A stretch of 52,723 bases of DNA. Origin: Lacticaseibacillus yichunensis (GTDB taxonomy: Bacteria; Bacillota; Bacilli; Lactobacillales; Lactobacillaceae). How positions within the stretch are numbered: the first letter of the stretch is position 1; the number at the start of each line of letters is the position of its first letter. The position numbers were made by a program, and so were the translations under genes. The stretch is from contig NZ_RHOG01000016.1 in NCBI RefSeq assembly GCF_003946405.1, positions 1-52,723 on the forward strand, written 5' to 3'. Positions 16,382-42,332 of the stretch are shown piece by piece. Below the pieces are notes generated by a model. The model was not told where the DNA came from. It worked only from the letters and a program-made list of their open reading frames with translations, and did no database searches.

Positions 16382-16650
16382 AGGGTGCGGCGCGGGGCGT
16401 TAGGACCCTGCAGATAAGTCCAGCAGACGCTTGAGGCGCACTAGGCCTCGAGTGACTGCTGGCTTAGATGTCAGGGTCCTGCCCCGCGAAGCCCGACTGA
16501 GGGTGCGGCGCGGGGCGCTTAGGACCCTGCAGCTAAGTCCAGCTGACGCTTGAGGCGCACTAGGCCTCGAGTGACTGCTGGCTTAGATGTCAGGGTCCTG
16601 CCCCGCAAAGCCCGACTGAGGGCGCGCCGGCTCGCGGGAAAGCCCCGTTC
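16382..16650 (+). repeat. Structured intergenic repeat array A
   Basis: Two tandem copies, 16382-16499 and 16500-16618, differ at only a few positions; a vestige of a third start (AGGGCGCGCCGGCTCGCGGG) follows at 16619. Each copy begins AGGGTGCGG and ends CCCGACTG. It folds as nested stems: GCGGGGC/GCCCCGC, AGGACCCTG/CAGGGTCCT, CTAAG/CTTAG, CAGCAG/CTGCTG and the apical CTTGAGGC/GCCTCGAG. Read on the minus strand, copy 1 is followed by seven T and could act as a terminator upstream of trmL. Confidence 0.9.
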
Positions 16651-16863
16651 TGCCGAACCAGCGCACAAAAAAACGTATCACCTCGGTGCTGCGCACGGCG
16701 AGACGATACGTTAGTGAAGTTTTTCATCGCTAACTTTTATCAATTTCCCAAAAGCAAGCCCTGATAAAAGCCAGAAATAAAAAAGCTTAAGAGTAACTTA
16801 ACACCGCCAATGGCTGAATGCAACCATCTGTGCATAAATTTTTTACATCCTGCACAGGTGTCC
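16651..16863. other. Intergenic inverted repeats between array A and rlmA
   Basis: There is no ORF of note. A hairpin AACGTATC...GATACGTT with an inner CTCG/CGAG lies at 16671-16712. CTTTTATCA/TGATAAAAG arms occur near 16733-16769. CATCTGTGCA/TGCACAGGTG arms lie at about 16826-16861, just after the rlmA stop. Any of these could end rlmA transcription, although none has a good T-run. Confidence 0.45.
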
Positions 16864-17688
16864 TCATATCGTTAACAGATCGACCGCCACATGAATGCTC
16901 GCAGGCGGCGTGGCCAGCATCGCCTCGCGTTTTTCAGCTGGGGCCTGCCAGGACAGTGGCGTCATCGCCAACACATCGGCAAATCCCGCCGCATCCACCG
17001 GGTGATCGTAGACGATAGCGGTCTGCTTGGCCTGCGGATACGCCGCCTTGAACCGCGTCAAAACGCGCTCGTTGCTGTATGTACCCTTCGCCGTGCCACC
17101 GTATAACCCCTGGCGCAATTCGCGCAGGTAGTCCGCTTGCGGAATCACCTTGAACAACCGGCTTTCCGGCGCGCGCACGCGATCAAATTCCTCATACGCC
17201 CCTGGTGAAAATAGGTCGACGATCGCCGAGAACCGACCAGCCAAAAACGGCAGATGTGCGAGGTCCGCCACACAGAAAAAGGCAGAGGTGGCCAGACTCC
17301 CGGCTAGTTCGATCGCAGGCTGAGAGATGTCAAACCCCACCGCGGCCGCCCCGCTTTCGGCTAATTTCGCAGTCGGGGTCCCTTCCCCGCAGCCAATATC
17401 CAGCAGTCGATCCGTCGCAGTGAGCTGTCCCTTGATCTCCGCCAAAAACGGGTCGAACAGGCCGTTTGCCAGCGCTCGCCGCCGCGCCTCAAGCATGGGC
17501 CGGCTGTATTCTGTTTTGACCGGGGCATTGAGGAAGTTCGCCGTCCCTTTGCGCGAGAGGTCGAACCGGTGGCCATTTGCACAGACCAGACTCGTTTCTT
17601 CTATTAATAATGGCTCACGGCACACCGGGCAAGCCAAAAACGGCGACTGATCCGCCAGCCAGGCCGCTTTTTGGGCGATCTTTCGCAT
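16864..17688 (-). CDS. rlmA: 23S rRNA (guanine-N1)-methyltransferase, RlmA family
   Basis: SAM-dependent methyltransferase of 274 aa. An N-terminal zinc finger (CPVCREPLL, then a second Cys and His in CANGHRFDL, residues 20-45) is followed by the Rossmann SAM motif LLDIGCGEGTPTAKL near 95 and PFLAGRFSAIVDLFSPG. Gram-positive RlmA(II) methylates G748 of 23S rRNA, the macrolide tunnel; that assignment is by family, not by direct evidence. It is divergent from corA, with a 94-bp shared promoter region holding a palindrome. Confidence 0.9.
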   Translation of the reverse strand: MRKIAQKAAWLADQSPFLACPVCREPLLIEETSLVCANGHRFDLSRKGTANFLNAPVKTEYSRPMLEARRRALANGLFDPFLAEIKGQLTATDRLLDIGCGEGTPTAKLAESGAAAVGFDISQPAIELAGSLATSAFFCVADLAHLPFLAGRFSAIVDLFSPGAYEEFDRVRAPESRLFKVIPQADYLRELRQGLYGGTAKGTYSNERVLTRFKAAYPQAKQTAIVYDHPVDAAGFADVLAMTPLSWQAPAEKREAMLATPPASIHVAVDLLTI

Positions 17689-17717
17689 CTTGGTCTCATT
17701 TCCTTTAAAATTGATTG

Positions 17718-17739
17718 CGGCAAAAAGTACCTTTTGCCG
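17718..17739. promoter_or_regulatory. Palindrome in the rlmA-corA divergent region
   Basis: CGGCAAAA and TTTTGCCG form 8-bp perfect arms around AGTACC. It sits about 30 bp before the rlmA start and 44 bp before the corA start, a possible operator or corA leader hairpin. Confidence 0.4.
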
Positions 17740-17782
17740 GTGAATTAACGTAGACTGGAGAAAGACACAAGGAGGAGCCCGT

Positions 17783-18730
17783 ATGCTTTCTATCTATAAA
17801 TTCGATGATACGATGGGTCAACTCAAGACTCAAGCCAAAATCGAATCCGATGTTTGGATCGATGCGGTCGACCCGACCCCAGAGGAAATGACCAAGTTGC
17901 AAAAAAAAGCCCGGGTGCCGGAAGCTTTTTTGCTGTATGGGCTTGATCCCGATGAAGGGGCCCGCTATGAATACGACGAGGATTATGATGCGCACCTATT
18001 GATCTTCGACATGCCCGTTGTCAGTCAGGACAGCAAGCACCGGGTCGCCTATAAGACGGTGCCACTGGCTGTGATCTTGACGACGACTGCCATCATCACG
18101 ATCGACAACACCGCGCAACCCCTGCTGGCCTTGTTTGCGAGCGGGAAAGTCGCCGGGTTCAATCCGAAAATGAAATCCCGCGCCGCCCTGCAGATGCTCT
18201 ACCAGATCTCCGTGGCCTACCTCGCGTATCTGCGCGACATCAACAAGGCTCGCGAAGCGCTGGAGACCAAGCTGCAAAATAATCTGAAAAACGAGGAGCT
18301 CTATGCATTGATGGGCATTCAGCGCGGCTTAGTGTATTTCATGATGAGCCTGCGCACCGACCGCAACGTGCTCGACCAGCTCAAACGGACCAACCCGCTG
18401 CACCTCAATGAAGAGGACCTCGACTTGCTCGATGACACGATCATCGAAAATCAGCAAGGCACCGAAATGGCGCAGATCTCAAACTCCATCATCAACGAGA
18501 CCGCCGACACGTATTCATCGGTCATTTCCAACAACATGAACAGCGTGATGAAATTCCTGACGTCATATTCAATCATCCTGACCATCCCCACCCTCGTCTT
18601 TTCATTTTATGGGATGAACGTGGAGCTCCCATTTGCGGGCATGCACGTCAGCTGGTTGATCACGATCATCATCTCGCTTGTGATCTCAGTCTTGATCGCG
18701 TTTCAGTTTTATAAAAACAAGTACTTTTGA
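17783..18730 (+). CDS. corA: CorA-family divalent cation transporter
   Basis: Membrane channel for Mg2+ (Co2+/Ni2+ in some homologues). It is 315 aa with a large soluble alpha/beta N-terminal domain and two C-terminal membrane helices. The pore signature YGMN is followed by VELPF near residue 275. The ATG follows AAGGAGG. It stands alone, with its own terminator. Confidence 0.94.
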   Translation: MLSIYKFDDTMGQLKTQAKIESDVWIDAVDPTPEEMTKLQKKARVPEAFLLYGLDPDEGARYEYDEDYDAHLLIFDMPVVSQDSKHRVAYKTVPLAVILTTTAIITIDNTAQPLLALFASGKVAGFNPKMKSRAALQMLYQISVAYLAYLRDINKAREALETKLQNNLKNEELYALMGIQRGLVYFMMSLRTDRNVLDQLKRTNPLHLNEEDLDLLDDTIIENQQGTEMAQISNSIINETADTYSSVISNNMNSVMKFLTSYSIILTIPTLVFSFYGMNVELPFAGMHVSWLITIIISLVISVLIAFQFYKNKYF

Positions 18731-18750
18731 TTCATTCACCCAGAATTGTG

Positions 18751-18777
18751 AAAGGCGGCCGCGTGCCGTCTTTTTTT
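18751..18777 (+). terminator. Intrinsic terminator of corA
   Basis: AGGCGGC and GCCGTCT stem with a short loop, followed by seven T. Confidence 0.85.
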
Positions 18778-18782
18778 GATTC

Positions 18783-19023
18783 AGGGTGCGGAGCGGGGCG
18801 CTTAGGACCCTGCAGCTAAGTCCAGCAGCCGCTTGAGGCGCACTAGGCCTCGAGTGACTGCTGGCTTAGATGCCAGGGCCCTGCCCCGCGGAGCCCGACT
18901 ATGAGGGTGTGAAGGCACGCGGGATGGTGGGTCGGCTAACTTGGCTCGGAAGCTTGGCGCGCACTTCGCACCGAGCGTCCGAGACGGTTAGGTGATCCCG
19001 CCATGCGCGCCGTAACCCAACTA
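18783..19023 (+). repeat. Structured intergenic repeat array B
   Basis: Copy 18783-18900 is almost identical to array A. Copy 18904-19023 (AGGGTGTGAAGG... to CCCAACTA) differs in most stem bases but keeps the pairing, for example TGGTGGG/CCCGCCA in the second stem and GGCTAAC/GGTTAGG near the third. About 75 further bases of unexplained sequence (19024-19099) follow before the guaC regulatory region. Confidence 0.88.
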
Positions 19024-19099
19024 CAAGGGGCGAGGGCCCCAGGATAGTAGTCTGGCCGTACAGCGACCTTCAGAACGGTGAGACTCTTGATCTTGAATA

Positions 19100-19112
19100 A
19101 AACACGAACATT
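19100..19112 (+). promoter_or_regulatory. PurBox upstream of guaC
   Basis: AAACACGAACATT matches 11 of 13 positions of the lactic-acid-bacterial PurR site AWWWCCGAACWWT. It lies about 60-70 bp before the inferred transcription start, near the position typical of PurR-activated promoters. Confidence 0.55.
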
Positions 19113-19134
19113 ATTTTTATATTTTAGCATATTG

Positions 19135-19163
19135 TTGACAGTTTCCTGTTTTTGCCGTATATT
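19135..19163 (+). promoter_or_regulatory. SigA-type promoter of guaC
   Basis: TTGACA (19135-19140), a 17-bp spacer, TATATT (19158-19163). The transcript would begin near 19170, at a CGCGGTG/CACCGCG hairpin (19168-19188). Confidence 0.88.
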
Positions 19164-19201
19164 TTGTCGCGGTGTGAAAATCACCGCGCAATTTCACAGA
19201 T

Positions 19202-19214
19202 AATGTTCGGCTTT
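19202..19214 (-). promoter_or_regulatory. Second PurBox in the guaC leader
   Basis: On the minus strand AAAGCCGAACATT matches 12 of 13 positions of AWWWCCGAACWWT. It lies downstream of the promoter, between the leader hairpin and the ribosome-binding site, in the opposite orientation to the first box. Confidence 0.6.
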
Positions 19215-19231
19215 TAGAAAGGACGACACAG

Positions 19232-20209
19232 ATGGAGATTTTTGATTACGAGGACATTCAGCTGATTCCAAACAAGTGTATCGTGCGCTCTCGCAAGGAG
19301 GTGGACACCTCTGTCGAGTTCGGCGGACGGACGTTCAAGATTCCCGTGGTGCCGGCCAATATGCAAACGATCATCGACGAGCCCCTCGCCAAGTGGCTGG
19401 CGGCCAATGGCTATTTTTACGTGATGCATCGCTTTGAACCCGAACGGCGCGCCGCATTTATCAAGCAGATGCACGAAGATGGCCCCTTCGCCTCGATCTC
19501 CGTCGGGGTGAAAGACGAAGAATTCGCCTTCATTGAAGAGCTGGCTGGCGCGCAACTCAATCCGGAATATATCACCATCGATATCGCGCATGGTCACGCC
19601 CAGATCGTGATGGACATGATTCAACACATCAAGAAATATCTGCCAGACGCTTTTGTCATCGCCGGCAATGTCGGCACTCCAGAAGGCGTCCGTGAGCTTG
19701 AAAACGCTGGGGCGGATGCGACAAAAGTCGGAATCGGCCCAGGAAAGGTCTGCATCACCAAAATCAAGACTGGCTTTGGGACCGGGGGCTGGCAATTGGC
19801 GGCACTGCGCTGGTGCGCCAAGGCCGCGCGCAAGCCGATCATCACGGATGGCGGCATTCGCACCCATGGCGACATTGCCAAGTCTCTGCGTTTCGGCGCG
19901 ACAATGTGCATGATCGGGTCCCTGTTTGCCGGCCATGAAGAGACTCCTGGCAAAAAAGTGACCGTCGATGGCAAACGGTATCAGGAGTATTTTGGCTCCG
20001 CCTCTGAATACCAAAAAGGCGACCACCACAATGTCGAAGGCAAAAAAATGCTGATCCCGCTGAAAGGCCACATTGCCGACACCCTCAAGGAAATGCAGGA
20101 AGATCTGCAGTCGGCTGTGTCCTACGCCGGCGGCCGCGATCTGGCGGCGCTGACCAAGGTCGATTACGTCATCGTGAAAAACTCGATCTTCAACGGCGAT
20201 CAATATTAA
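19232..20209 (+). CDS. guaC: GMP reductase
   Basis: NADPH-dependent conversion of GMP to IMP, rebalancing guanine and adenine nucleotides. It is an IMPDH/GMPR-family TIM barrel of 325 aa, the GuaC2 length. The catalytic cysteine is in [11 protein letters not shown] near residue 175; the phosphate-binding region is [10 protein letters not shown] and [13 protein letters not shown]. The ATG follows AAAGGA. Two PurBoxes flank the promoter, which suggests PurR control. Confidence 0.96.
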
Positions 20210-20251
20210 GCTAACTTTTAGTAAGTTTTCCGTGCACTCCGGGCCGGTGCG

Positions 20252-20260
20252 TGTTAGAAT
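20252..20260 (+). promoter_or_regulatory. Extended -10 promoter of rpsN
   Basis: TGTTAGAAT is an extended -10 box 62 nt before the rpsN start; no convincing -35 was seen. Confidence 0.5.
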
Positions 20261-20322
20261 TGACCACGATGTTACTAGTGATCGACCTAACCCAAACCAA
20301 AAACTCAAATACGGAGGACTGC

Positions 20323-20592
20323 ATGGCTAAGAAATCGAAGATCGAAAAAGCCAAGAAGATCGAACTGACCGTGGCAAAGTACGCCACGCTTCGCGCAGAG
20401 TATAAAGCGACAGGCAATTATGCCGCGCTTCAGACGCTGCCGCGCAACGCCAGCCCAGTGCGGATGCACAACCGCGACGAACTGGACGGCCGCCCGCATG
20501 CCTACATGCGCAAGTTCCATCTTTCGCGACTCAACTTCCGGGATCTCGCGCATAAGGGTCAGATTCCTGGTGTGCGCAAAGCTTCTTGGTAA
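20323..20592 (+). CDS. rpsN: 30S ribosomal protein S14, zinc-independent type
   Basis: S14 paralogue of 89 aa. It has the family end RHxF-like segment and [11 protein letters not shown] but none of the four cysteines of the short zinc-ribbon form. In Firmicutes this C-minus form replaces the zinc form, often under zinc shortage. The ATG at 20323 follows CGGAGG; the longer frame from 20251 is not supported. It stands alone rather than in the S10-spc ribosomal operon, typical of the alternative S14. No clear Zur/AdcR site was seen. Confidence 0.94.
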
Positions 20593-20614
20593 GTTAGCGT
20601 CAGTTAGAAAAAAT

Positions 20615-20659
20615 GGACCTCAGGCACCCACCTTTCTGGGTAGCCTGAGGTCCTATTTT
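20615..20659 (+). terminator. Intrinsic terminator of rpsN
   Basis: GGACCTCAGGC pairs with GCCTGAGGTCC, with an inner CCCA/TGGG, followed by TATTTTT. Confidence 0.93.
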
Positions 20660-20709
20660 TGTCGCACACAGCGTGGTGGCGCGCAGCTGCGCCAATTTTT
20701 GGCCAGGCC

Positions 20710-21084
20710 TCACTCAGCCGTCCGATACGTCAAGGTCTCGCCCACCGCAAACGTGGTGACCTGAGCCGGGGTGAGGTACAGCGCATTGGCCAGCGGCGAC
20801 TCAGCAGGCACAGGGCCGAAAACCAATGCAACATGGCCGATCGCCTGAAGATTTTCGTTTGCCAACGCGCCGACGTGGGTGATCGTATAGCCTTGCGACC
20901 CCACCTGCAACGTATCGCCTTCTGCCAGCGTCAAGGCTTGCTGACGCGCACGGTCTGTGAACCGCTGAATCACCGACACATCCTGCAGCGGTACAGTCGC
21001 CGTTTCCCCAAATAAGATCACTAGCGCCGCATCGCTACCCAAAGCATCTGGGCCGATCGCGGTGATCACCGAAGTTGTTTCCAT
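20710..21084 (-). CDS. Orphan PTS glucitol/sorbitol IIA-like protein
   Basis: 124-aa protein resembling the EIIA-Gut fold; the best match is the C-terminal half with ITHVGALANENLQAIGHVALVF, typical of that family. I see no EIIB/EIIC or sugar-phosphate dehydrogenase gene nearby. In E. coli GutA the phosphorylated histidine lies in an IHCHGEL-like segment; the matching stretch here reads DVSVIQRFTDRARQQALTL and has no histidine, so phosphotransfer seems unlikely. It may be a regulatory or degenerate relative. The ATG follows AAGGAGGGG. Family assignment is from motif recall. Confidence 0.7.
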   Translation of the reverse strand: METTSVITAIGPDALGSDAALVILFGETATVPLQDVSVIQRFTDRARQQALTLAEGDTLQVGSQGYTITHVGALANENLQAIGHVALVFGPVPAESPLANALYLTPAQVTTFAVGETLTYRTAE

Positions 21085-21107
21085 CTGCGCCCCTCCTTTT
21101 TGTCTTC

Positions 21108-21160
21108 AGTTATCATACCATGCCGCGAAATGCGTGCGGCAATGTTATACTGAAAGCGCA
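21108..21160. promoter_or_regulatory. Overlapping divergent promoters sharing a palindrome
   Basis: Plus strand: extended -10 TGTTATACT (21142-21150) for the lactonase gene. Minus strand: extended -10 TGGTATGAT for the PTS-IIA-like gene (about 21114-21122). Between them TGCCGC and GCGGCA arms form an inverted repeat, so one bound protein could block both. Confidence 0.55.
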
Positions 21161-21217
21161 ATTGTTTTGAACACACGCAGACGCGTTGAACACGACTGCG
21201 TTCAGGAGGCAAGTTCA

Positions 21218-22252
21218 ATGAAGCAAACAGTTCTGCTTGGCGGCTACACCCGCCACGGCGGCAAAGGTGTCTACCGGGCCGCTTTTGATTCCGAAACCGG
21301 TGCGCTCAGCCCCTTCACGCCTTTCATCTCGAGCCTGACATCGCCGACGTACATGGCGGTCTCAAGCGCAAACATCGCGTACATCGTGAGTGCAGGCGAA
21401 GGCGAAGGCGGCGTTGCGGCCTTTGACTTGAACGGCGACACCCCGCGTCTGATCAACAGCGTACTGACCCCGGGTGGTTCCCCGGCGCACATCTCCCTTG
21501 ATGAAAAACGCGGACTGGTTTTTGCGGCGTTTTACCATGATGGCCGCGCCAATGTTTACAAGATCGGCGAAGATGGCGGCCTCACCGCCACGGACAGCGT
21601 GCAACATGCGGGCAACGGGCCGCGGCCAGAGCAGGACGAAGCGCATGTCCATTTTGCGGCGCTCACGCCAGACGACCGGCTTGCCCTTGTCGATCTGGGC
21701 AACGACACCGTCACCACCTATCCAGTTGATGACGCTGGCAAACTTGGCGCACCGACGATTTTGAACACCCCGAAAGGCTATGGCCCGCGCCATTTGGTCT
21801 TCAATCACAAGCGCCCGATCGCCTATCTGCTTGGCGAATTGTCCAGTAACCTGACTGTGATGCCATATGATGCGACGACAGGCAGCTTCACCATGGGCCA
21901 GACGGTCAAAACAATTCCGGCCGATTACACCGACTTCAACGGGGCGGCTGCAATTCGGCTCTCCAGCGACGACCGCTTCCTGTATGCCTCCAATCGCGGC
22001 TATAACACGATCGTCGTGTACGCCGTCAGCGAAGATGGGCTGAGTCTCACCGAGATCCAGCAGATCTCTACAGAAGGCGACTTCCCGCGCGATTTTGACC
22101 TCGACCTGAGCGAGACCTATGTCCTTGCTGTCAATCAAAAAACGAGCAACGGCACCCTGTATCAGCGCGATGCCGCCACTGGCAAGCTTTCCTTGGCCGC
22201 CAAAGACTTGGAGACCCCAGAGGCTGTGAACGTGGTCTTTTTGAAAGACTAA
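21218..22252 (+). CDS. pgl: Lactonase / 6-phosphogluconolactonase-type beta-propeller
   Basis: 344-aa seven-bladed beta-propeller protein (Pfam Lactonase, YkgB/Pgl type) that in homologues hydrolyses 6-phosphogluconolactone in the oxidative pentose phosphate pathway. Family marks are LLGGYTRHGGKGVY at the N-terminus, GNGPRPEQDEAHVHFAALTPD near residue 130, YGPRHLVFNHKRPIAYLLGE and LYASNRGYNTIVVY. The ATG at 21218 follows CAGGAGG. The exact substrate is inferred from the family. Confidence 0.87.
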   Translation: MKQTVLLGGYTRHGGKGVYRAAFDSETGALSPFTPFISSLTSPTYMAVSSANIAYIVSAGEGEGGVAAFDLNGDTPRLINSVLTPGGSPAHISLDEKRGLVFAAFYHDGRANVYKIGEDGGLTATDSVQHAGNGPRPEQDEAHVHFAALTPDDRLALVDLGNDTVTTYPVDDAGKLGAPTILNTPKGYGPRHLVFNHKRPIAYLLGELSSNLTVMPYDATTGSFTMGQTVKTIPADYTDFNGAAAIRLSSDDRFLYASNRGYNTIVVYAVSEDGLSLTEIQQISTEGDFPRDFDLDLSETYVLAVNQKTSNGTLYQRDAATGKLSLAAKDLETPEAVNVVFLKD

Positions 22253-22262
22253 GATTTGAACT

Positions 22263-22290
22263 GAAATAGCGGCGATGTGCCGCTATTTTT
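22263..22290 (+). terminator. Intrinsic terminator of the lactonase gene
   Basis: AAATAGCGGC and GCCGCTATTT with a 5-nt loop, followed by further T. Confidence 0.93.
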
Positions 22291-22334
22291 TTGTGCGACG
22301 GTGTCGGCTTTTTCCTTAAATTTTCGCCATGGCG

Positions 22335-22362
22335 TTGTTATGCCCCGCCTGGCCGGTATACT
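22335..22362 (+). promoter_or_regulatory. Promoter of uppP-cutC
   Basis: TTGTTA (22335-22340), a 16-bp spacer and TATACT (22357-22362), about 30 nt before the uppP start. Confidence 0.7.
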
Positions 22363-22391
22363 TGAAGTATCGATCTGCAAGGAGGAGCCTC

Positions 22392-23213
22392 ATGCTAGAC
22401 ATAATCAAAGCCATCGTGATCGGCATCGTCGAAGGGTTGACGGAATTTCTGCCGATCAGCTCGACCGGCCACATCGACCTAGTCAATCACGTGATCAAGT
22501 TGAACCAAAGCGCGGATTTTACCGCGATGTTTGAATACGTGATTCAATTCGGCGCGATTCTCGCCGTCATCTTGCTTTATTTCAACAAATTGAACCCGTT
22601 TGCCCCCACCAAGTCCGCCCCGGAGAAAAAGGCGACCTGGTTGATCTGGGCAAAGGTGATCGTCGCCGTTTTGCCATCAGTCATCATCGGCCTGCCGCTG
22701 AATGATTGGATGGACGCGCATCTGCACACCCCGCAAGTCGTCGCAACGACCTTGATCTTCTACGGAATCTTGTTCATCGTCATCGAGAACTGGGCCAAGG
22801 ACAAGCAGCCAGCCGTGTCGCGCCTCGCTGATCTATCTTTCCAGACCGCCCTGTTCATCGGCCTGTTTCAGGCGCTGTCGATCATCCCTGGCACCAGTCG
22901 CTCTGGCGCGACGATCTTAGGCGCGATCATTCTCGGCACCAGCCGGGCAGTGGCAACGGAATTCTCGTTTTACCTCGCGATTCCCACAATGGTCGGCGTG
23001 TCGATCTTGAAAATTGGCAAGTTCATCATGAATGGCAACAGTTTGACCGGCGAGCAATGGGCCGTCCTGTTGACCGGGCTCATCGTCTCGTTTCTGGTCG
23101 CCGTGGTCGCGATCAAGTGGCTCATCAAATTCGTCAAGACGCATGATTTCAAACCCTTTGGCTGGTATCGTATCGGCCTCGGGCTCGTCGTCTTGCTGGT
23201 CTTATTCCTATAG
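22392..23213 (+). CDS. uppP: Undecaprenyl-diphosphatase
   Basis: BacA/UppP family membrane enzyme of 273 aa. It dephosphorylates undecaprenyl pyrophosphate to recycle the lipid carrier for peptidoglycan and teichoic acid, and raises bacitracin tolerance. Signatures: [14 protein letters not shown] near residues 14-27 and [10 protein letters not shown] near 167-176. About seven to eight membrane helices. The ATG at 22392 follows AAGGAGGAG. cutC follows after 9 bp and its ribosome-binding site overlaps the uppP stop. Confidence 0.96.
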
Positions 23214-23222
23214 GAGGTCCTC

Positions 23223-23858: not shown

Positions 23859-24158
23859 AGGGTGTGGCGGCTCGTGGGATGGCCGGGTAGCTAGCTTGGC
23901 TCGGGTGCTTGAGGCGCACTTCGCCTCGAGTGCACAAGCCTGCTAGATATCCCGGACATGCGAGCCGGAACCCAACTAAATGGTGTGGAGGCTCGCGGGA
24001 TGGTCGTGCATATAGGCTAGCCTAGTGCTTGGTGGCGGTCCTTGCCACCGAGTGCTGGGCGTACCTACATGTCTCGACCATGCGAGCCGGAACCCAACTA
24101 TATCGGTGTGAAGGCTCGTGGGATGCCGAATCAGCTAACCGTCCCCTTGCTTCCAACT
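23859..24158 (+). repeat. Structured intergenic repeat array C
   Basis: Full copies at 23859-23978 and 23981-24100 and a partial one at 24105-24158. Copy 1 pairs GGCTCG/CGAGCC, CTAGC/GCTAG and an apical TGAGGCG/CGCCTCG. Copy 2 pairs GGCTCGC/GCGAGCC, TGGTCG/CGACCA and an apical GGTGGC/GCCACC instead. The partial copy keeps only the 5' arm through CAGCTAAC before ending CCAACTA, as if the whole hairpin top and 3' arm had been deleted. Confidence 0.9.
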
Positions 24159-24199: not shown

Positions 24200-24230
24200 C
24201 GTTCTATTAAATTTTATAATGGCAGTTCAG

Positions 24231-27572: not shown

Positions 27573-28016
27573 AGGGTGCGGAGGTCCGCGGGATGGCGGA
27601 TCAGCTAACCTGGCCCTGGCACTTGAGGCGCCCTTCGCCTCGAGTGACGGGGACAGTTAGATGTATCCACCATGCGGACCGCAGCCCAACTTCAGGGTGC
27701 GGAGCCGAGCGGGAGGTCTGAGCAGCAATTTTGGACTATGGGCGTATGGCGCACCTTGCCATCGAGCGCCTGGGCCAATTAGATGCCTCAGACCTGCTCG
27801 GCGCAGCCCAACTTCACGGTGCGGAGGGCCGCGGGATGGCGGGGTAGCTAGGTTGGCTCGAGCGCTTGAGGGCGTTCTTTGCCCTCGAGTGATTGAGACG
27901 CCTAGATGTCCTCACCATGCGGACCGGAGCCCAACTACACGGTGCGGAGGGCCGCGGGATGGTGGGGCAGCTAACTTGGCCCTGGCGCTACGGCGTACTT
28001 CGCCTTCCAGATCGTC
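27573..28016 (+). repeat. Structured intergenic repeat array D
   Basis: Largest array: copies 27573-27691, 27694-27813, 27816-27937 and a partial 27941-28016. Pairings change between neighbours but are kept: copy 1 GGTCCGC/GCGGACC, copy 2 GCCGAGC/GCTCGGC with AGGTCTGAG/CTCAGACCT, copy 3 apical TTGAGGGC/GCCCTCGA. The partial copy stops just after the apical loop and lacks the 3' arm. Apparent ORFs through this region are chance frames in G+C-rich palindromes. Confidence 0.9.
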
Positions 28017-35148: not shown

Positions 35149-37164
35149 CTATTTTGCCACATACACCCGCAGGCCCTTGGCATCCCCGTAGACGCCTTGA
35201 ATCTCAAACGCGAACCCGGGATAAAGCCGCATCAACTCTGCGAGATTTTGGAAATGCTGCTGGGCCAGCGCGGACCATTTTTCACCTGGCATCACGACGA
35301 ACACGCCCGGTGGATAAGGCAGCGCGCCTTCCAGCGCCACGCGCCCGATTGCCTGACTCAGCGTAATCCACTCACCATTGCCGCGAACAAATTCGGCATC
35401 CGCGGCGGCCGGCGTCATCACCGCTTCACCCCAATGCGCCGCCTGGAAAAGGCCTTGCAGGGACTCTGTCAATTCGAGGTCTTCGATATCGATGGTCATC
35501 TGATACGCCAACTCACGAAGCGTCATCCCCGCATAGCGCTCAAATGCCGGACCAGGCAGGGCGGCCGTCGCATCCGCCCCGGCAAAATACAACCGCTCCA
35601 GATTTTTCAACGCCGCCAATAGCCGTTGCCAATCCGCCTCACTGGAGCCAGGGGTCGCCAAGTACAAGCCGGAAAAGAGATCATTTTTCTCCGCGATGAT
35701 GCCCCGCGCCTCAAGATACGCCCCAACGATCGGCGCCGGCAGCGGATACGCCTCGGTGCCGTAGCAGACCGTCACCTTCAACGGATCGTTCAGATACTGC
35801 CCGCTGGCCACGTCGTCAAAGCCATGCCAGTTCGCGGCTGGCGCCACCGCCCACGCGGACGCCTGGCGTAGCGCCGCATCAGCGGCCGTGGCCCATGGCT
35901 TGCCGTCGACTGTCGGCGCGACAAACGGCCGAAACAGCTGCGTCGCAAACAACGCGCGGCGAAACGCATTGGCCTCATCCTGCGCCCGTGCCCATTGCGC
36001 CTGCCCGTCAAACGCCTGGACAGCCGCATTCACCGTCAGCGACGCATATAACGGATACGAATAACTGGTCGTCACATATTTCAGATAGGCGTGATTGAAG
36101 CGGTCATGGTCGATATAGCGCGCCTGCCCCTGCAAATGATGATCGCGCTTGAGAATCTGAGACCCCTGCGCCATCGCCGCCATTGTTTTATGAAGCGACT
36201 GGGTGACGAAAATGCCGGGATCATCCGGCCCCAGCTCAAGCTTGGCAACATCGCTGGCAGCCAGCGCCGGCACAAAATGTTCGTAGCCGCCCCAGGCATC
36301 GTCAAACAGGATGTAATCGCAGAGCGGCCCGAGATGCGTCAGCACATATTGCAGCGTCGCAAACTGGCCATCGTAAGTCGCCAGTTGCAACACCGCCAGC
36401 CGAAATGGGCGCTGCGCCGCGCCGCGAACCGGATCCACCTTGGTCGCCGCTTCCCGTAGCGTTTTTTCATCGAGACTGCTGGCAAGCGGGCCGCCGATCG
36501 CCCCCAGCGCATTGCGGTTGGTCGGCAGATAGACCGGTTTGGCGCCGGTGAACACCAACGCGGCATTGGCCAAGGACTTGTGGTTATTGCGGTCAAACAA
36601 GACAAGGTCCCCAGGCGCTAGCGCCGCCGCAGCCGCGATCGCATTTGCGCTGGTGGTGCCGTTGGTGACAAAATACGCCTCATCGACGCCGTAAGTCTGC
36701 GCCGCAAACCGCTCGGCCTCAAGCGGGCTGCCGCCATGCGTCATCATGTCACCGAGTTGATCGACCGAATCGCTGACGTCGGCCGTGAACAGTGCCTGGC
36801 CAAAAAAGTTGCGGAGTGCCTGGCCGGCCGGTGCGCTTTCAAAGGCGCGGCCGCCATGATGCCCCGGGGTCGCAAAACTGACTGGCTGCTCTGTCGAAAA
36901 ATCGATCAGGTCGCGCAAAAACGCGGGCACCTGCTGATTTTCATAAGCCGTCGCGGCCGCAAACACCTCGGCCCAAGCTGGCGACGCGGAAAAGGTGGGC
37001 AGGCCCGCCCGTTGCGCTGCGCCTGCATCCTGCGGCGAGGCCGGACCAACAACGGCCGCCAATGCCGTTGCGGGCACGTTGCTCGCCTTCACAAAAGTCC
37101 AACCTTGAGTCTCGGTCGGCGCCGCTGCCCCTTCACCGAGGCCAATTTTCAAACTATGAGTCAT
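35149..37164 (-). CDS. Orn/Lys/Arg decarboxylase family (group III PLP)
   Basis: 671-aa biodegradative decarboxylase. The PLP lysine is in QSLHKTMAAMAQGSQ; other marks are SFATPGHHGG near residue 95, TADVSDSVDQLGDMMTHGG, VTNGTTSANA and LFDDAWGGYEHF. Ornithine is the likeliest substrate among lactobacilli, but lysine or arginine cannot be excluded. ATG 37164 follows GAGCGTGA; ATG 37200 has no signal. It is divergent from an amino-acid permease, the usual partner in acid-resistance antiport, but that permease is frameshifted here. No terminator was found after it. Confidence 0.88.
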   Translation of the reverse strand: MTHSLKIGLGEGAAAPTETQGWTFVKASNVPATALAAVVGPASPQDAGAAQRAGLPTFSASPAWAEVFAAATAYENQQVPAFLRDLIDFSTEQPVSFATPGHHGGRAFESAPAGQALRNFFGQALFTADVSDSVDQLGDMMTHGGSPLEAERFAAQTYGVDEAYFVTNGTTSANAIAAAAALAPGDLVLFDRNNHKSLANAALVFTGAKPVYLPTNRNALGAIGGPLASSLDEKTLREAATKVDPVRGAAQRPFRLAVLQLATYDGQFATLQYVLTHLGPLCDYILFDDAWGGYEHFVPALAASDVAKLELGPDDPGIFVTQSLHKTMAAMAQGSQILKRDHHLQGQARYIDHDRFNHAYLKYVTTSYSYPLYASLTVNAAVQAFDGQAQWARAQDEANAFRRALFATQLFRPFVAPTVDGKPWATAADAALRQASAWAVAPAANWHGFDDVASGQYLNDPLKVTVCYGTEAYPLPAPIVGAYLEARGIIAEKNDLFSGLYLATPGSSEADWQRLLAALKNLERLYFAGADATAALPGPAFERYAGMTLRELAYQMTIDIEDLELTESLQGLFQAAHWGEAVMTPAAADAEFVRGNGEWITLSQAIGRVALEGALPYPPGVFVVMPGEKWSALAQQHFQNLAELMRLYPGFAFEIQGVYGDAKGLRVYVAK

Positions 37165-37327
37165 TTTGTCACGCTCTTTTCCGAAAATTGCTTGACCCAT
37201 TCTTGCTGCGTCCCTATGATGGAAAAGACTTTCATTTTGACCAGAGGAGGCGCGGGGTCTTGCATGCTAATAAAGCACCTGGCGAAATGGGCGTTGTCTG
37301 TTGACGTCACATTTCGGAGGAAACTAA

Positions 37328-38784
37328 TTGAATAATACACTAGAACCAGGCAAGAAATACATCAAATGGCCGACGCTTGCCCTTTTGACATTCGTTACGG
37401 TCATCGGTTTCGATGATATCATTTATCCATTCCAAAACCAGGGCTTGTCCGTTGTTTTGTCCTGGATCTTCATGCTTTTTACATTCGTCATTCCCTATGA
37501 ACTGATCGCCGCACAAATGGGCTCGACCTTCACCGAAAACGGCGGCGGCCTGGCGACCTGGCGACCTGGGTGCGCCGGACTTCAAACGACACGCTGGGCT
37601 ATTGGACCTCCTGGATCTACTGGTCCTCGACCCTGCCCTACCTGGTCGATGTCGCCAATTCCGTCATCGTCGCCCTGTCCTGGCTGGTTTTGGGCAACAA
37701 CACCCTGGGCGATCACATGTCCAACTTCTGGTTTGGCCTGTTCACCTTCGCCGTCATCTTGATTTTCATCGTCTTGGAAAATGTCTTCAAGCGCTCCCTT
37801 GAAGTGATGAGCATGATCGGTGGCGGCGCGATGTTCATCATGACCATCTTGTTCGTGGTGATGACCATCGTTGGCCTGGCCCATGGCAATGCGATCGCCA
37901 CCCAGCCATTTGACTGGCACGCCTTCATGCCGAAGTTCGACACCCACTATTTTGCCACGACCGGCCTGCTCATCTTCGCCATGTCCGGCGCGGAGCTTGG
38001 TGCGGCCTACATCCTTCAAATGAAGGACCCGAAGCACGAGTATCCCAAAGCCATGATCATGCTGGCTGTGATGACCGCGTTTCTGACGATTTTTGGCTCC
38101 TTTGCCCTCGGCGTGTTCTTCAACGCCCATCACTTGCCGAATGACCTGAAAATGAATGGCGCGTACTACGCCTTCCAGCGACTCGGCGAGAGTTTTGGCT
38201 GGGGCAAGAGCCTGATGTACGTGTTCGGCGTGGTCCAGCTAGTCTACATGCTTGCCCAGCTCGCCGTCTTGATCGATGCCGCCTCCCGCGTTTTGTCGAT
38301 GGACACCGCGGTCGCGTACATGCCGAAATGGCTGCTCAAGAACAACAAGAATGGCCGCCCGATTCACAGCTATATTTTCACCGCGGGCCTGTGCCTGTTC
38401 TTGCTGCTGCTATCCGGCACGCTGCCGAACATCAACACGATCTTCAACTGGCTCCTGAACCTGAACGGCATCGTGTCTCCATATAAGACATGCTGGGTCT
38501 TCTTCTCGTTCATCATGCTGCGCTGGCACCAGGACCGCTACCAAAGCGCCTATGTCTTCATCAAGAACCGCTATGGCGCGCTGGCCGTGGGCTGGTGGTG
38601 CCTGCTGTTCACCTTCACCTGCGCAACGCTGGGCTTCATCCCGCAGGAAGCCAGTTTTGGCACCGCGGCCTTCAGCCATCAATTGCTCTTGAACGTGGTG
38701 TCCACCTTGGTCCTTTTTGGCCTCGGTTTTGTGATGCCACTGCTCGCGCGCTGGGAAAAACACCGCGCAGAAGCACGAGCATGA
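37328..38784 (+). pseudogene. APC-family amino-acid permease, frameshifted by an 8-bp duplication
   Basis: Two frames make one protein: residues 1-78 in the first (start TTG 37328 after GGAGG) and the rest in a second frame running from about 37570 to 38784. At 37553-37568 the 8-mer GCGACCTG is tandemly duplicated; removing one unit restores a continuous 482-aa protein of about 12 membrane helices reading ENGGGLATWVRRTSNDTLGY. It resembles glutamate:GABA and polyamine:amino-acid antiporters. It faces the decarboxylase gene, so it is probably its substrate/product exchanger. It could be a recent inactivation, a reversible switch or an assembly error. Confidence 0.85.
37553..37568 (+). repeat. 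8-bp tandem duplication inside the permease gene
   Basis: GCGACCTG occurs twice back to back. The second unit shifts the frame by +2; the frame is intact on both sides of it. Confidence 0.93.
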
Positions 38785-38816
38785 CGTTTATCGCCGTCAC
38801 GTCGGCCTAGAATCGA

Positions 38817-38863
38817 AAAATCGCGCTTCCTTGCAAAATTGCGGGGAGACGCGATTTTTTTGC
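38817..38863 (+). terminator. Intrinsic terminator of the permease gene
   Basis: AATCGCG and CGCGATT outer stem with inner pairing, followed by seven T. Confidence 0.8.
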
Positions 38864-38953
38864 TTACTGGCCAGTGACCCAGCTGGCTGGGCACAGACCT
38901 GGTAGGCCGCTGCCCGGCCACTTCCACTGACTGCCAATGACACTGTCTGCCAG

Positions 38954-39793
38954 TTACGCCTGTGCGCCGCTGGCCGCGATGCGCTGCATATAATGCGGCA
39001 ACGCGGCGATCACCATCGATGGCAGGACCACGTAATTCGTCGCAGCCAGTCCATCGGCGATCGCACTATGCGCATAGACCGCGGCGCACACGGTCTGATC
39101 CACATAGCCGAACTGGGCGATAAACGCCGCCAGGATGCCAGTCAACGTGTCCCCTGAGCCGCCGGTGGCCATGGCAGCCGAGCCGGTCGTATTTTCATAC
39201 GAAGCCGTGGGGGAAAAAATCTGTGTGCGGTGGGCCTTCACGATCACCGTGCCGGCAATGGCCGCGGCTGCCTTGGTGTTGGCCGCCACCGTCTGTTCTT
39301 TGACAGCCAGCCCGGACAGCCGCTGCCACTCCATTTGGTGGGGCGTCCACACGACATTTTGAAACTCGACAGGCAGCTGGTGCTCAGCCACCAACGTGAT
39401 CGCCGAGCCATCCAAGATCAGCGTTTGCGCCGGGGTGATGCCGCCCAGCGTCGTCTGCAAAATGGCCAGCGCCGCCTCGTCTGTCCCCAGCCCTGGGCCA
39501 ATGACGATCACCGTGGCCGCCGCCAGCGCCGCCTTGAGCGCCTGACGGTCATTGAACGGCACGATCATCGCTTCCGGCAGCCGGGCATGCAGCGCCGACC
39601 GGTTCACCGGATCCGTCGCGACCGTGACCAGCCCCGCGCCGGCATACACCGCCGCGCTGGCCGCCATGATCGCCGCCCCGCCGAATTGGGCGTTGCCGCC
39701 GACGATCAGGACGCGCCCAAATGTGCCTTTATGACTCTCCTGCGGCCGCGGCCGCACCACTGTTTGAACAACGCTTTCGCTCAATTGCTTCAT
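38954..39793 (-). CDS. nnrD: ADP-dependent NAD(P)H-hydrate dehydratase
   Basis: 279-aa carbohydrate-kinase-fold repair enzyme that restores hydrated NAD(P)H (YjeF C-terminal domain). Marks are RVLIVGGNAQFGGAA near residue 20, VIGPGLGTDE near 95, TPHQMEWQRL in place of the usual TPHPGE motif, and ATGGSGDTLTGI near 217. The usual DADAL reads DGSAI here. ATG 39793 lies 7 nt after AGGTG; GTG 39802 is too close to it. The epimerase partner (nnrE) is not in the window. Confidence 0.92.
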   Translation of the reverse strand: MKQLSESVVQTVVRPRPQESHKGTFGRVLIVGGNAQFGGAAIMAASAAVYAGAGLVTVATDPVNRSALHARLPEAMIVPFNDRQALKAALAAATVIVIGPGLGTDEAALAILQTTLGGITPAQTLILDGSAITLVAEHQLPVEFQNVVWTPHQMEWQRLSGLAVKEQTVAANTKAAAAIAGTVIVKAHRTQIFSPTASYENTTGSAAMATGGSGDTLTGILAAFIAQFGYVDQTVCAAVYAHSAIADGLAATNYVVLPSMVIAALPHYMQRIAASGAQA

Positions 39794-39889
39794 GCCACTC
39801 ACCTCTTAGCGCCATTGTAGAAGATGCGCGGGGAAAAGACCACTGATTTTGACTGGCTAGGGCGCCGCACACCTGAAAAATGGCAAAAA

Positions 39890-39926
39890 AAAAGAGACAC
39901 GTTGATCACTCAACTGTCTCTTTTTA
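39890..39926 (-). terminator. Intrinsic terminator of tRNA-Leu
   Basis: AAAAAGAGACA and TGTCTCTTTTT with an inner GTTGA/TCAAC, perfectly paired. Confidence 0.93.
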
Positions 39927-39948
39927 TAACACGTTTTGTTGCCTGATC

Positions 39949-40032
39949 TGCCGCAAACAGGAGTCGAACCTGCACATGGATAACCATACAGCGACCTGAA
40001 CACTGCGCGTCTGCCAATTCCGCCATTGCGGC
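39949..40032 (-). tRNA. tRNA-Leu (anticodon CAG)
   Basis: 84-nt class II tRNA. Acceptor stem GCCGCAA/TTGCGGC, anticodon loop TTCAGGT between CAGTG and CGCTG, a variable arm and a T-arm with GGTTCGACTCC. It reads CUG, matching the specifier of the leuS T-box in this window. The CCA end is not encoded. Confidence 0.96.
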
Positions 40033-40045
40033 AACAACGTATTTG

Positions 40046-40074
40046 ATTATAGCAAGGATCTAGCGGCTTGCCAA
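40046..40074 (-). promoter_or_regulatory. Promoter of tRNA-Leu
   Basis: TTGGCA (40069-40074), 17 bp, TATAAT (40046-40051) on the minus strand, with a TG extension. Confidence 0.92.
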
Positions 40075-40234
40075 GTCCTTTTTTTCAGTCCCCGCAAGGC
40101 ACACGGCCATTGGGTACTTGAATATATTACCAGCCCATCCCCCGCATAGCAAGGGAAAAAGCCGCTCTGCAAAGAAAAACATGGCGGCCTCAACGCCATT
40201 GCGCAGGACCGCCTGACTCGTGCATGATTCTTGA

Positions 40235-41869
40235 TCAGCTGATATGCAACCGGCGCCGCAATCCCGCCACGCGCTCGCCGATGACCAGATCCGCCAGTCG
40301 TGTTTTCAAAACGGCATAGCCATAGATCGCAACACCAACCGGCAGCGCGATAATGATCGTGATCATCGACGCAACAGCCGATGCCGGATTCAGCAAGTGG
40401 CTCATGCCAAAAACGATCAGCCAGACCACCACCGCCATCACCGCGGAAAACAGGAAAATCCCGGCGGTGCGGCGCAGCGTCTGATGGAAACGATAGTGGT
40501 AACGGCCGCGCAGCGAGTGCAACATAAGCACGCAGGAGACCAGCATCCCCGCCATGCTTGCCAGCGTTGGCCCGTACACGCTGAACCAGTAGATGAATGG
40601 CATCTGGGTCAGGAGTTTGACGCCCATACCGATCAACATTTCCAAGATCGCGAGTTTGTTGTGGAAAAGCCCCTGCAAGATCGTGGCCAGAATGCTGAAT
40701 AACCCCAGCAACACCGCCAGCACCGAGGCAATCGCCAGCATCTTAATGCCCAGACTGTCGTAGCCATAGAACACGACGTACAGCGGTTGGGCGATCGCAA
40801 TCATCCCCATCGCCGCAGGAATCATCACGATGAAAAACAGTTGGAGAATGTTGGTAATCTGATCGGAGACATTTTTCATCTCGCCGCGTGTTTTCGCCGC
40901 TGACAAAAGTGGCAAAGCGGTCACGGCCATGGCCACCGCCAAGCTGACGATGATCATGATCAGCTTATTGGCATTCCCCGCAAACAGGGCGTAGATCTCA
41001 TCGAGCTGGTGGGTCGTAGTCTGATAGAAGCGCATCATCATCGGATTGAACGTATATTGATCGATGATGTAGTAGATATTGATAGCCGAGTCCATGATGA
41101 TGAACGGAATCGCCTGGTGGACAATATCAAGCAAGATACGTTTGATGGGCACGTTCAGCGAATCGACACTGTTCTCGATCAATTCGGTGAATTTATGGCG
41201 TTGGCCGAAGAAATAGATCACCAGGATCGCCAGTCCAAACAAGGCACCGACGAAAGCCGCAAACGTGGACTGGGTCACCGCTGCGACATAATCGCCGCTG
41301 CCCAGGCGCATGATTGAAAAGGTCATCAACAACATGTACGCCACCCGGGCCAACTGTTCGATGAACTGGCTGATCGCGCTCGGCGCCATTTCGTTGTAGC
41401 CTTGGAAAAAACCGCGCATGATCGACAGCGGCGGAATCAAAAGCAGCGGCCAGGCCAGCGACCGAAAGACGGCGGTCAACGCGGGATCGTGCAACGCAAG
41501 CACCGGCGCCAGCAGCCACATCAGCGCACAAGACACGACGCCCATCCCCGTCATCGCGATCGCACCGTATTTGAAGATGCGCAGGCCAGTTCGGTACTCC
41601 CCCATCGCGTTGTAGTGCGAGACCTGTTTTGAGATCGCCCCAGGCACGCCGGCCGTCGAGATCAAGAGGAAAACACTGTAGATCTGGTAGCCTTTCGTAA
41701 ATAACGCATTGGCCGTCAAAAAAGCGGCCCCTAGCCAAATGCGCCAGGGCACGACATAAATTGCGCCTAAGATGCGTGAAAAAATACTGCCGGCCGTCAT
41801 CCAGGCCGACCCGCGAAGCATTTTATCGTGGTCAGATGTCTGTTGTGGCTCGGCCTGTTGTTTGTCCAT
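40235..41869 (-). CDS. murJ: MOP-superfamily flippase (MurJ/YtgP-SpoVB type)
   Basis: 544-aa membrane protein with about 14 helices, of the polysaccharide biosynthesis/MATE-like family. The N-terminus after a polar 16-residue leader, MLRGSAWMTAGSIFSRILGA, is typical of Firmicutes YtgP, which acts as the lipid II flippase MurJ; closely related SpoVB-like proteins move other lipid-linked sugars. Lactobacilli carry several paralogues, so the specific substrate is inferred. A promoter (TTGATT, 18 bp, TATTAA at 41903-41932) lies between it and repeat array E. Confidence 0.82.
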   Translation of the reverse strand: MDKQQAEPQQTSDHDKMLRGSAWMTAGSIFSRILGAIYVVPWRIWLGAAFLTANALFTKGYQIYSVFLLISTAGVPGAISKQVSHYNAMGEYRTGLRIFKYGAIAMTGMGVVSCALMWLLAPVLALHDPALTAVFRSLAWPLLLIPPLSIMRGFFQGYNEMAPSAISQFIEQLARVAYMLLMTFSIMRLGSGDYVAAVTQSTFAAFVGALFGLAILVIYFFGQRHKFTELIENSVDSLNVPIKRILLDIVHQAIPFIIMDSAINIYYIIDQYTFNPMMMRFYQTTTHQLDEIYALFAGNANKLIMIIVSLAVAMAVTALPLLSAAKTRGEMKNVSDQITNILQLFFIVMIPAAMGMIAIAQPLYVVFYGYDSLGIKMLAIASVLAVLLGLFSILATILQGLFHNKLAILEMLIGMGVKLLTQMPFIYWFSVYGPTLASMAGMLVSCVLMLHSLRGRYHYRFHQTLRRTAGIFLFSAVMAVVVWLIVFGMSHLLNPASAVASMITIIIALPVGVAIYGYAVLKTRLADLVIGERVAGLRRRLHIS

Positions 41870-41902
41870 CCTTATACCCCGTTCAGTCTAATTAATTCTA
41901 TT

Positions 41903-41932
41903 TTAATAGAAGACCCGCGCCACTTCAATCAA
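41903..41932 (-). promoter_or_regulatory. Promoter of the MurJ-like gene
   Basis: TTGATT (41927-41932), 18 bp, TATTAA (41903-41908) on the minus strand. Confidence 0.5.
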
Positions 41933-41969
41933 CCTCGGAATTCTTCAGATTATGATAAGGAATTTGTGG

Positions 41970-42332
41970 CGGGTGTGTAGCCGAGTGGTTTGGGGTGGGC
42001 AGGTAGTTTGGCCTGGGCGTTTGATGGCGTACTTGGCCATCGGGCGATCAGACCAACTACATGACCCGCCCCTGCTCGGCGGAACCCAACTAAGGGTGCG
42101 GCGCGGGGCGCTTAGAGGCGGACGGCTAGGTCCATCAGGCGCGTGAGGCGCTCTTTGCCTCGGGTGACTGATGGCCTAAATGCGCCGCCTCTGCCCCCGC
42201 GAAGCCCAACTGAAGCGTGTGGAGGCCCGCGGGATGGTGGGGCAACTAGCTGGCTCGGGTGCTTGAGGCGTCCTTCGCCTCGGGTGCACGAGCCAGCTAG
42301 ATGTCCCCACCATGCAGGCTGGAACCCGACTA
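41970..42332 (+). repeat. Structured intergenic repeat array E
   Basis: Three full copies: 41970-42092, 42093-42211 and 42214-42332. The first is the most divergent yet fully paired: GCCGAG/CTCGGC, GGGGTGGG/CCCGCCCC, TAGTT/AACTA and apical GATGGC/GCCATC. The second resembles array A in its outer stem (GCGGGGC) but has AGAGGCGG/CCGCCTCT inside. The third has CTAGCTGG/CCAGCTAG. The array lies between the leuS end and the MurJ-like gene promoter. Confidence 0.9.

Follow-up and report, generated by a model that had tools for sequence, protein, structure and literature searches.

The window analysed here, a stretch of 52,723 nt from the genome of Lacticaseibacillus yichunensis, contains 12 full units of a repeat in five tandem arrays, together with partial copies and a vestige (Table 1). 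The array positions given in an earlier note, which was made from the sequence letters, were borne out; the 12 full copies could be delimited, and the partial copies behind arrays 3 and 4 and the vestige behind array 1 were found again. In the close relative G021, the site of array 2 holds only a vestige.

Table 1. Repeat arrays in the window, with their units and surroundings
Feature	Position	Strand	Units	Neighbours or setting
Array 1	16383..16617	+	Full units 16383-16498, 16501-16617; GA spacer	SpoU-family methylase gene (-) / 23S-methyl RNA motif and RlmA-type gene (both -); array antisense
Array 1 tail	from about 16620		Degraded partial copy (vestige), seen in the sequence	
Array 2	18784..19022	+	Full units 18784-18900, 18905-19022	Directly 3' of the corA terminator run TTTTTTTGATTCA; IMPDH-domain gene next
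Array 3	23860..24144	+	Full units 23860-23977, 23981-24099; partial copy behind, from about 24105	cutC (+) / degV (-)
Array 4	27574..28005	+	Full units 27574-27691, 27695-27813, 27817-27936	Divergent intergenic region, upstream of RelA/SpoT-domain gene
Array 4 tail	27941-28005		3'-truncated copy (nhmmer match)	
Array 5	41971..42331	+	Full units 41971-42091, 42094-42211, 42215-42331; trailing copy not clear	Polysacc_synt-domain gene (-) / leucyl-tRNA synthetase gene (-); array antisense to both

The unit is a rod of about 118 nt with fixed bulges and an apical loop that usually contains CUU, and its ends pair as a short helix of four pairs. Folding against dinucleotide shuffles agreed with the description of each copy as one long interrupted hairpin for 12 of 12 copies in the window, with z-scores from -3.4 to -9.7; none of 200 shuffles folded as well for 11 of the copies, and 1 of 200 did so for the copy at 27816. 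The units stand in tandem, separated by spacers mostly of 1-8 nt, and each starts immediately after an A. This base precedes the first unit in 90 of the 91 arrays of this genome with a measurable spacer, and 103 of 114 units in other genomes. The arrays nearly always end in a further unit start that is truncated at its 3' side (90/100, against 12-13 of 99-100 control positions). The trailing copy was also considered as a degenerate full copy and this was rejected, as the 3'-end motif follows in 10 of 90 cases against 4 in the control window.

It was previously noticed that the stem bases change in pairs between copies, and the 12 copies of the window confirm this for 23 of 42 pairs. In an alignment of 147 distinct copies (A2), taken from the best 150 matches of this genome, compensatory change was found at 33 of 42 pairs, and in other genera at 42 of 42. 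In the 147-copy alignment, 1106 cells showed double changes where shuffles gave a mean of 339, and 95.4% of all cells were paired against 28-40% when the partners were slid. The alignments used in the covariation test were fitted by a covariance model; the pairing of A2 also holds when its copies are aligned with MAFFT from sequence alone, 95.2% of the cells then being paired. With our own R-scape-like script, in which 30-60 null alignments set the limit of the E-values, the column pairs found significant lay inside the structure in 20 of 23, 27 of 30 and 12 of 12 cases for the three alignments. This significant covariation supports the proposal that the fold is maintained, either through selection or through a copying mechanism dependent on it.

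The mismatches indicate which strand folds. Among the 6171 cells of the 147-copy alignment, G.U occurs 558 times and A.C 54 times (553 and 55 in the sequence-only alignment), and at the 35 pairs dominated by Watson-Crick pairing the counts are 108 and 48. Three pairs are constitutive wobbles, in 111, 108 and 132 of the 147 sequences, and a G opposite an A is kept at columns 34/98 (142 and 134 of 147). In other genera the wobble bias at Watson-Crick-dominant pairs is weaker (34 against 22 in alignment A5 and 39 against 12 in A4). Since G.U is far commoner than A.C, one strand folds alone. The high copy number and the intergenic placement would suit DNA cruciforms serving as gyrase-binding or nucleoid-binding sites for chromosome organisation, which was one of three guesses in the earlier note. 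A cruciform should tolerate G.T and A.C symmetrically, an expectation from reasoning and not a published criterion, and this guess is weakened by the asymmetry in both alignments and by the three constitutive wobbles. It is further opposed by the many genomes of the family in which the unit was not detected and by the absence of replication-strand bias, both described below, and we regard it as highly improbable.

This genome (G000, 2.56 Mb) has at least 150 matches, and 200 full copies were counted in the stretches of it that were read, which were 80 of 82 planned array regions; copy numbers are lower bounds. The scale of the repeat family is far larger than reported in the earlier note. Under strict filters, 86 of 201 Lactobacillaceae genomes matched a genus-wide covariance model of the architecture, and none was detected in the other 115. 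The copy-rich genomes G001, G006, G011 and G014 of the genus have 50-61 R1 matches each. With strict filters the architecture was also found in other Lactobacillales, the order to which the search had been proposed; this scope was too narrow, as three further Bacilli genomes, of other orders, matched in a phylum-wide set of 398 genomes. The Rfam search of the window gave nothing at the arrays at the gathering threshold. At 20 + 20 + 8 further loci searched against Rfam 15 with E up to 1, there were only sub-threshold matches, mostly to miRNA precursors; some overlap units, the best having an E-value of 2.8e-5 and 44.5 of 91 bits. Thus no match reached the gathering score in the units examined. 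Lack of significant covariation, or a match to a described family, had been named beforehand as evidence against the proposal; as covariation was significant and no Rfam model reached its gathering score, neither occurred.

According to gene calls from a rough codon-usage caller, which also served for the array neighbours, 8 of 101 arrays overlap genes, 89 of 194 adjoining genes lie on the strand of the element, and all four gene orientations are used. A cis-regulatory or terminator function was rejected in the absence of gene-direction bias. A leading- or lagging-strand preference was rejected as well, since 51 of 118 arrays were in leading-strand sense in a one-contig genome (a hand count from bins). 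These observations bear on the possibility that the unit is a structured RNA useful to the host, either protein-bound or a substrate of RNase III, and only incidentally multi-copy, with arrays acting as dosage or decoy loci and selection on the transcript keeping the fold. The strand-specific fold, the conserved bulges, the apical CUU loop and the constitutive wobbles look RNA-like, and the architecture is spread across Bacilli. However, the arrays have no orientation bias to genes and occupy divergent and antisense positions, their copy number goes from none detected in more than half of the family genomes under strict filters to at least 150, and units are replaced at their sites. We consider this explanation unlikely.

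The evidence for mobility comes from plasmids and from the turnover of units at their sites. A 154-nt difference separates copY-copA plasmids that have one copy from those that lack it; the 5' junction is precise and the 4-nt repeat ATAA is present at both junctions, which were read by eye. Plasmids in the empty state may instead have lost the copy by exact deletion between these repeats. One copy type occurs in 77 plasmid records, and near-identical plasmids have unlike units at one site. Array 3 of the window as query gave no plasmid match, four other copies as queries gave none, none, 1 and 15 records, and the one query used for phages found no match.

When G000 was compared with its close relative L. 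mingshuiensis, no unit of at least 90% identity stood at the same site for 23 of 43 units. Mapping to G021 covered arrays present in G000 (25 tried, 24 mapped), which leaves sites found in G021 alone under-counted. Identical spacers of at least 3 nt were shared by 28 of 46 adjacent unit pairs less than 75% identical, against 1.9% between arrays. In a random sample of about 15% of the pairs between different arrays of this genome, none of 2929 reached 95% identity and the best had 94%, so that recent chromosomal transposition was not seen. The left flank equals the first spacer in full in 13 of 78 arrays (3.7 expected, maximum 11 in 2000 shuffles), which is above chance and below what simple target duplication predicts. 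Target duplication after the trailing copy was rejected, as no left-flank duplicate was found behind trailing copies in this genome. Two further candidate empty sites turned out to be a vestige and an ambiguous case; L352, dropped as an empty site, is a hairpin-deleted vestige.

Such hairpin-deleted vestiges, for example GGGTGCGAAGCCCAACT, suggest polymerase bypass, and the replacement of units in place with their spacers kept resembles unit-limited conversion. Both would fit a purely mutational maintenance of the fold, in which quasi-palindrome correction and gene conversion between arrays act through hairpins in replicating DNA, with neither selection nor a dedicated enzyme. This process should make the arms perfect, yet neither the G opposite A nor the fixed bulges have been removed, and G.U outnumbers A.C. 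Nor does it explain why the unit occurs in many genera as well as on plasmids, and we consider it improbable.

Taken together, we propose, with a probability of about 0.6, that the units are non-autonomous mobile elements which are moved via a folded single strand, and that they form a family spread through Bacilli whose common feature is structure and not sequence. Among the guesses in the earlier note, the mobile miniature element is the best supported, by the presence and absence on plasmids with the 4-nt repeat and by the turnover at the same site. A protein partner may exist; none was found. The folded strand, be it RNA copied from the unit or DNA in the course of replication or transfer, would be recognised by a putative enzyme, and the copy would insert with its 5' end exactly after an A-ending target and with an imprecise 3' end. 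New units would land at sites already occupied, which would explain the common spacer of unlike neighbours, and the elements would be mainly selfish and tolerated in intergenic DNA. More tentatively, they may represent a type of Bacilli mobile element whose folded shape, as ssDNA or as RNA, is recognised by a putative trans-acting enzyme. In this reading almost all base pairs could change, the 5' end would lie exactly behind a short clade-typical A-ending motif (CCA, AGA, GAA) and the 3' end would be loose. Bolder still, the arrays may be transcribed and yield circular rod RNAs, for which retrozymes offer an analogy.

The search for the moving enzyme covered two domains in 30 genomes of the genus. 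Y1_Tnp (PF01797) was present in 13 of them and absent from the copy-rich G001, G006, G011 and G014; REP/RAYT mobilisation was rejected, since the Y1 transposase does not track copy number in the genus. RVT_1 (PF00078) was present in 11 of 30, with none in G000, G021, G006, G011 and G001, and mobilisation by a reverse transcriptase (retroelement or group II-derived) was rejected for the same reason. Close array pairs box in 28 genes, as called by the same rough caller, and the 12 scanned for a partner included no transposase or recombinase.

EFAR of Enterococcus faecalis are reportedly palindromic miniature insertion sequences of about 170 bp that insert at stem-loops. In family f8, whose genus g15 is probably Enterococcus, the one match is the plasmid-type copy. 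The element bcr1, judging from the title of its report, is said to be multi-copy, to have mobile-element characteristics and to be specific to the Bacillus cereus group; by this description it is like the present units in the first two traits and unlike them in its restriction. The bcr1 element is also longer. A likeness to integron attC sites or to the start of group II introns was dropped, since conservation of the edges does not extend from genus to genus.

BOX, RUP and SPRITE of pneumococcus are, according to PMC3049150, small interspersed repeats with stable folds that its authors judge parasitic, and the present units are alike in size class, dispersal and folding. The same paper describes BOX as a boxA/boxB/boxC composite, with terminal inverted repeats likened to ISSpn2 and tandem boxB modules that differ in number between strains. 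Going by that description, the present unit is set apart as a single rod with freely changing stems in scattered Bacilli families. REP/RAYT repeats (PMC3733652) are palindromic and of high copy number like ours, with 20-40 bp against about 118 nt. The units are small, multi-copy, base-paired and intergenic as MITEs are (about 118 nt, 200 full copies, 8/101 arrays overlapping genes). As for target-site duplication, ATAA stands at both plasmid junctions and the spacers belong to the site, and no duplicate follows the trailing copies in this genome.

The economically important lactobacilli (the former casei group and others) gain a structure-defined repeat family captured by no Rfam model searched. 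What moves a rod of about 118 nt with almost free sequence becomes a concrete, testable question, and genomes with well over a hundred copies offer a natural experiment in compensatory evolution. The family is also relevant to genome comparison and plasmid annotation, because copies sit inside operons and beside promoters.

The window holds 12 full units of about 118 nt together with partial copies, spread over five arrays, and every unit forms a single interrupted rod on folding. The scanned neighbours of the arrays are ordinary chromosomal genes (a SpoU-family methylase, an RlmA-type methyltransferase, corA, an IMPDH-domain gene, cutC, degV, a RelA/SpoT-domain gene, a CoiA-domain gene, a Polysacc_synt gene and a leucyl-tRNA synthetase gene). 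The Rfam scan of the window gave no match at the arrays that reached the gathering scores; elsewhere in the window it gave T-box, SAM-III, 23S-methyl and four tRNAs. Array 1 stands between the 23S-methyl RNA motif and the downstream SpoU-family gene.

Coordinates of the features discussed in the text
Feature	Location	Strand	Context
23S-methyl RNA motif	window 16667-16780	-	beside array 1
GATTCA after a terminator T-run	window 18767-18783
Divergent single copies	G021 (L. mingshuiensis) C6, about 112.4k, 117.1k and 141.7k; locus L238, 1685-1800		window counterparts at about 3950, 8420 and 33250
Copper-gene plasmid copy	plasmid record L339, 3022-3138	-	between copY and ATPase gene

The conserved feature of this family is the fold. 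Within this genome, double changes occurred in 33 of 42 pairs (1106 cells vs 339 in column shuffles), and they were found in 37 of the 38 predicted pairs genus-wide and in all 42 pairs of the other-genera alignment. Covariation was assessed by a purpose-written, tree-aware test, in which Fitch substitutions were re-scattered on a FastTree tree and scored by a G statistic with APC. This test, which is our own implementation and used alignments fitted to the structure, gave 23 significant column pairs in the genus-wide alignment (A4), 30 in the other-genera alignment (A5) and 12 among 147 distinct copies from the best 150 matches in this genome (A2). The structure accounted for 20, 27 and 12 of them, respectively, leaving 22, 15 and 30 of its 42 pairs below significance; 2, 2 and 0 lay one column away from it, and 1, 1 and 0 elsewhere. 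On a sequence-only alignment, pairing in A2 was still 95.2%.

Were duplex DNA all that mattered, decay of a G-C pair would be about as easy towards G.T as towards A.C. The copies of this genome showed 558 G.U cells against 54 A.C cells over all pairs, three of which are wobble in most copies, and 108 against 48 over the 35 Watson-Crick-dominant pairs. The same bias held in the sequence-only alignment, with 553 v 55, as well as in A4 (148 v 28) and in A5 (128 v 39); for Watson-Crick-dominant pairs it was 39 v 12 on A4 and weaker, 34 v 22, on A5. As the copies are not independent by descent, these counts carry no exact probability. Because G.U outnumbers A.C, unlike the equal decay expected of duplex DNA, the folding strand is the one reading GGGTG...CCCAACT, as RNA or single-stranded DNA.

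A covariance model built from the 12 window copies (R1) found at least 150 matches in this genome, and nhmmer applied to the window and 80 stretches around R1 matches gave 220 hits without overlap, of which 200 are full. R1 matched 25 of 30 genomes of the genus, this genome counted, and 0 of 30 others. The reach of a second model (R2), made from 60 sequences spanning the genus (A4), was much wider: it matched 86 of 201 Lactobacillaceae genomes, spread over 20 of 40 genera; 18 of 246 in an order-wide draw, including 8 from outside Lactobacillaceae; and 4 of 398 in a phylum-wide draw, namely this genome and three class Bacilli genomes outside the order. These draws overlap, and the counts stand per draw and are not additive. 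In G027, a one-contig genome of the genus, R2 gave at least 150 matches, where R1 gave 6.

The anatomy of the arrays was examined on 101 arrays of this genome. Spacers between units are short, nearly all 1-7 nt, and an A directly precedes the first unit in 90 of the 91 arrays having a measurable spacer. Of 100 arrays with a full unit, 90 have the start of another unit (9 or more of 12 pattern positions) within about 10 nt after them, vs 12/100, 13/99 and 13/99 at control positions of +250, +400 and +600 nt; with nhmmer partials added the count is 91 of 101. The trailing copies extend over a median of 28 nt (range 6-102; 90 arrays), and the full unit most similar to them is in the same array in 25 of 90. 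On a recount, 18 of 20 partial nhmmer hits are 5'-complete and two are 3' pieces. In other species and genera, an A precedes 103 of 114 units, the clade-typical endings being CCA, AGA or GAA by eye, and 44 of 113 units are followed by the start of a next unit (control position 1/112). GATTCA follows several terminator T-runs in this species, array present or not, as in the window and many left flanks, and the post-terminator sequence TTGATTCA ends about a tenth of left flanks here (6-mer counts of 10-11 in 101).

The spacers belong to the site, while the units come and go. Median identity is 72% both within and between arrays; pairs reaching 95% were 19 of 150 within arrays and 0 of 2929 sampled between arrays. 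For adjacent units below 75% identity, the spacers were the same, and 3 nt or longer, in 28 of 46 pairs, vs 1.9% between arrays. The close relative L. mingshuiensis matches this genome over long stretches at 89-99% identity. Of 25 arrays, 24 could be mapped to it, and a whole or partial unit occupies the same place in 21 of these; two of the remaining three, the two looked at by eye, are vestiges there. Identity of 90% or higher to some same-site unit of L. mingshuiensis is seen for only 20 of 43 units, and the same-site best match exceeds the best match elsewhere for 17 of 43. Either new units insert with duplication of the site spacer, or conversion replaces units in place.

Plasmids provide one presence/absence site. 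The records L339, L343 and L344 carry one copy between copY and a heavy-metal ATPase gene, and its sequence has matches in 77 plasmid records of many genera, with a query coverage of 80% or more in 74. In three Leuconostoc plasmids, which carry these genes too, the gap is 96 nt rather than 250 nt, and the CopY protein accession is identical to that in L339 and L343. By eye, the empty site on the element's strand reads ..CCCCCTAAAAATAAGTTTCCGCC, and the filled site reads ..CCCCCTAAAAATAA, then the unit plus about 33 nt, then ATAAGTTTCCGCC; the filled site is longer by 154 nt, its 5' end is precise after A, and ATAA stands at both junctions. The empty state could also be the product of a precise deletion. 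At a second site (PTS IIC/IIB), near-identical plasmids hold different units and another plasmid a hairpin-deleted vestige; a third site (IID/DUF956) holds a vestige, one unit, or two units and the same vestige. In plasmids of Pediococcus and L. paracasei (L346, L347, L349), a copy separates two PTS genes that apparently belong to one operon, and is antisense to them.

Given the observed structure, strand, boundaries, turnover and copY site, we propose that the folded single strand would be recognised by an enzyme acting in trans, that insertion would be precise at the 5' end and loose at the 3' end, that occupied sites would be used repeatedly, and that persistence would be mainly selfish. 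The plasmid insertion has a tail of ~33 nt, roughly the combined length of spacer and trailing copy (about 4-5 and 28 nt) in this genome. This may reflect a moving copy that takes along ~33 nt from downstream of its donor, which is offered only as a suggestion; tail lengths vary widely. No host logic of gene direction or replication strand was found for the arrays of this genome and G027, respectively. Of 194 neighbour genes, 89 share the element's strand, and each of the four gene orientations is used (25, 23, 16 and 33, with 4 contig-edge arrays set aside). In G027, 51 of 118 arrays have leading-strand sense (hand count from bins), taking the contig start as a dnaA-like gene and the skew sign change between 1.42 and 1.60 Mb.

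The nearest described kind is the BOX, RUP and SPRITE repeats (PMC3049150). Stem-loop families have been surveyed across bacterial genomes, among them Bacillus halodurans, Enterococcus faecalis and Lactobacillus johnsonii (PMC2267715), and a paper on 104 RNA motifs includes Lactobacillales motifs, none described in its accessible part as this hairpin family (PMC2864571). The family is undescribed only in the sense that it was found neither in Rfam 15 nor among the titles and abstract openings in the literature searched, to which most subscription papers did not belong.

A divergent subfamily, reading GTGGGACAAATGTC... or close to it, is represented in L. mingshuiensis by three single copies. 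They are followed by a GGGACAAA...TTTGTCCC hairpin, and this genome has other terminator-like sequence at these places. The covariance model gave one of these copies a score of 54.7 bits.
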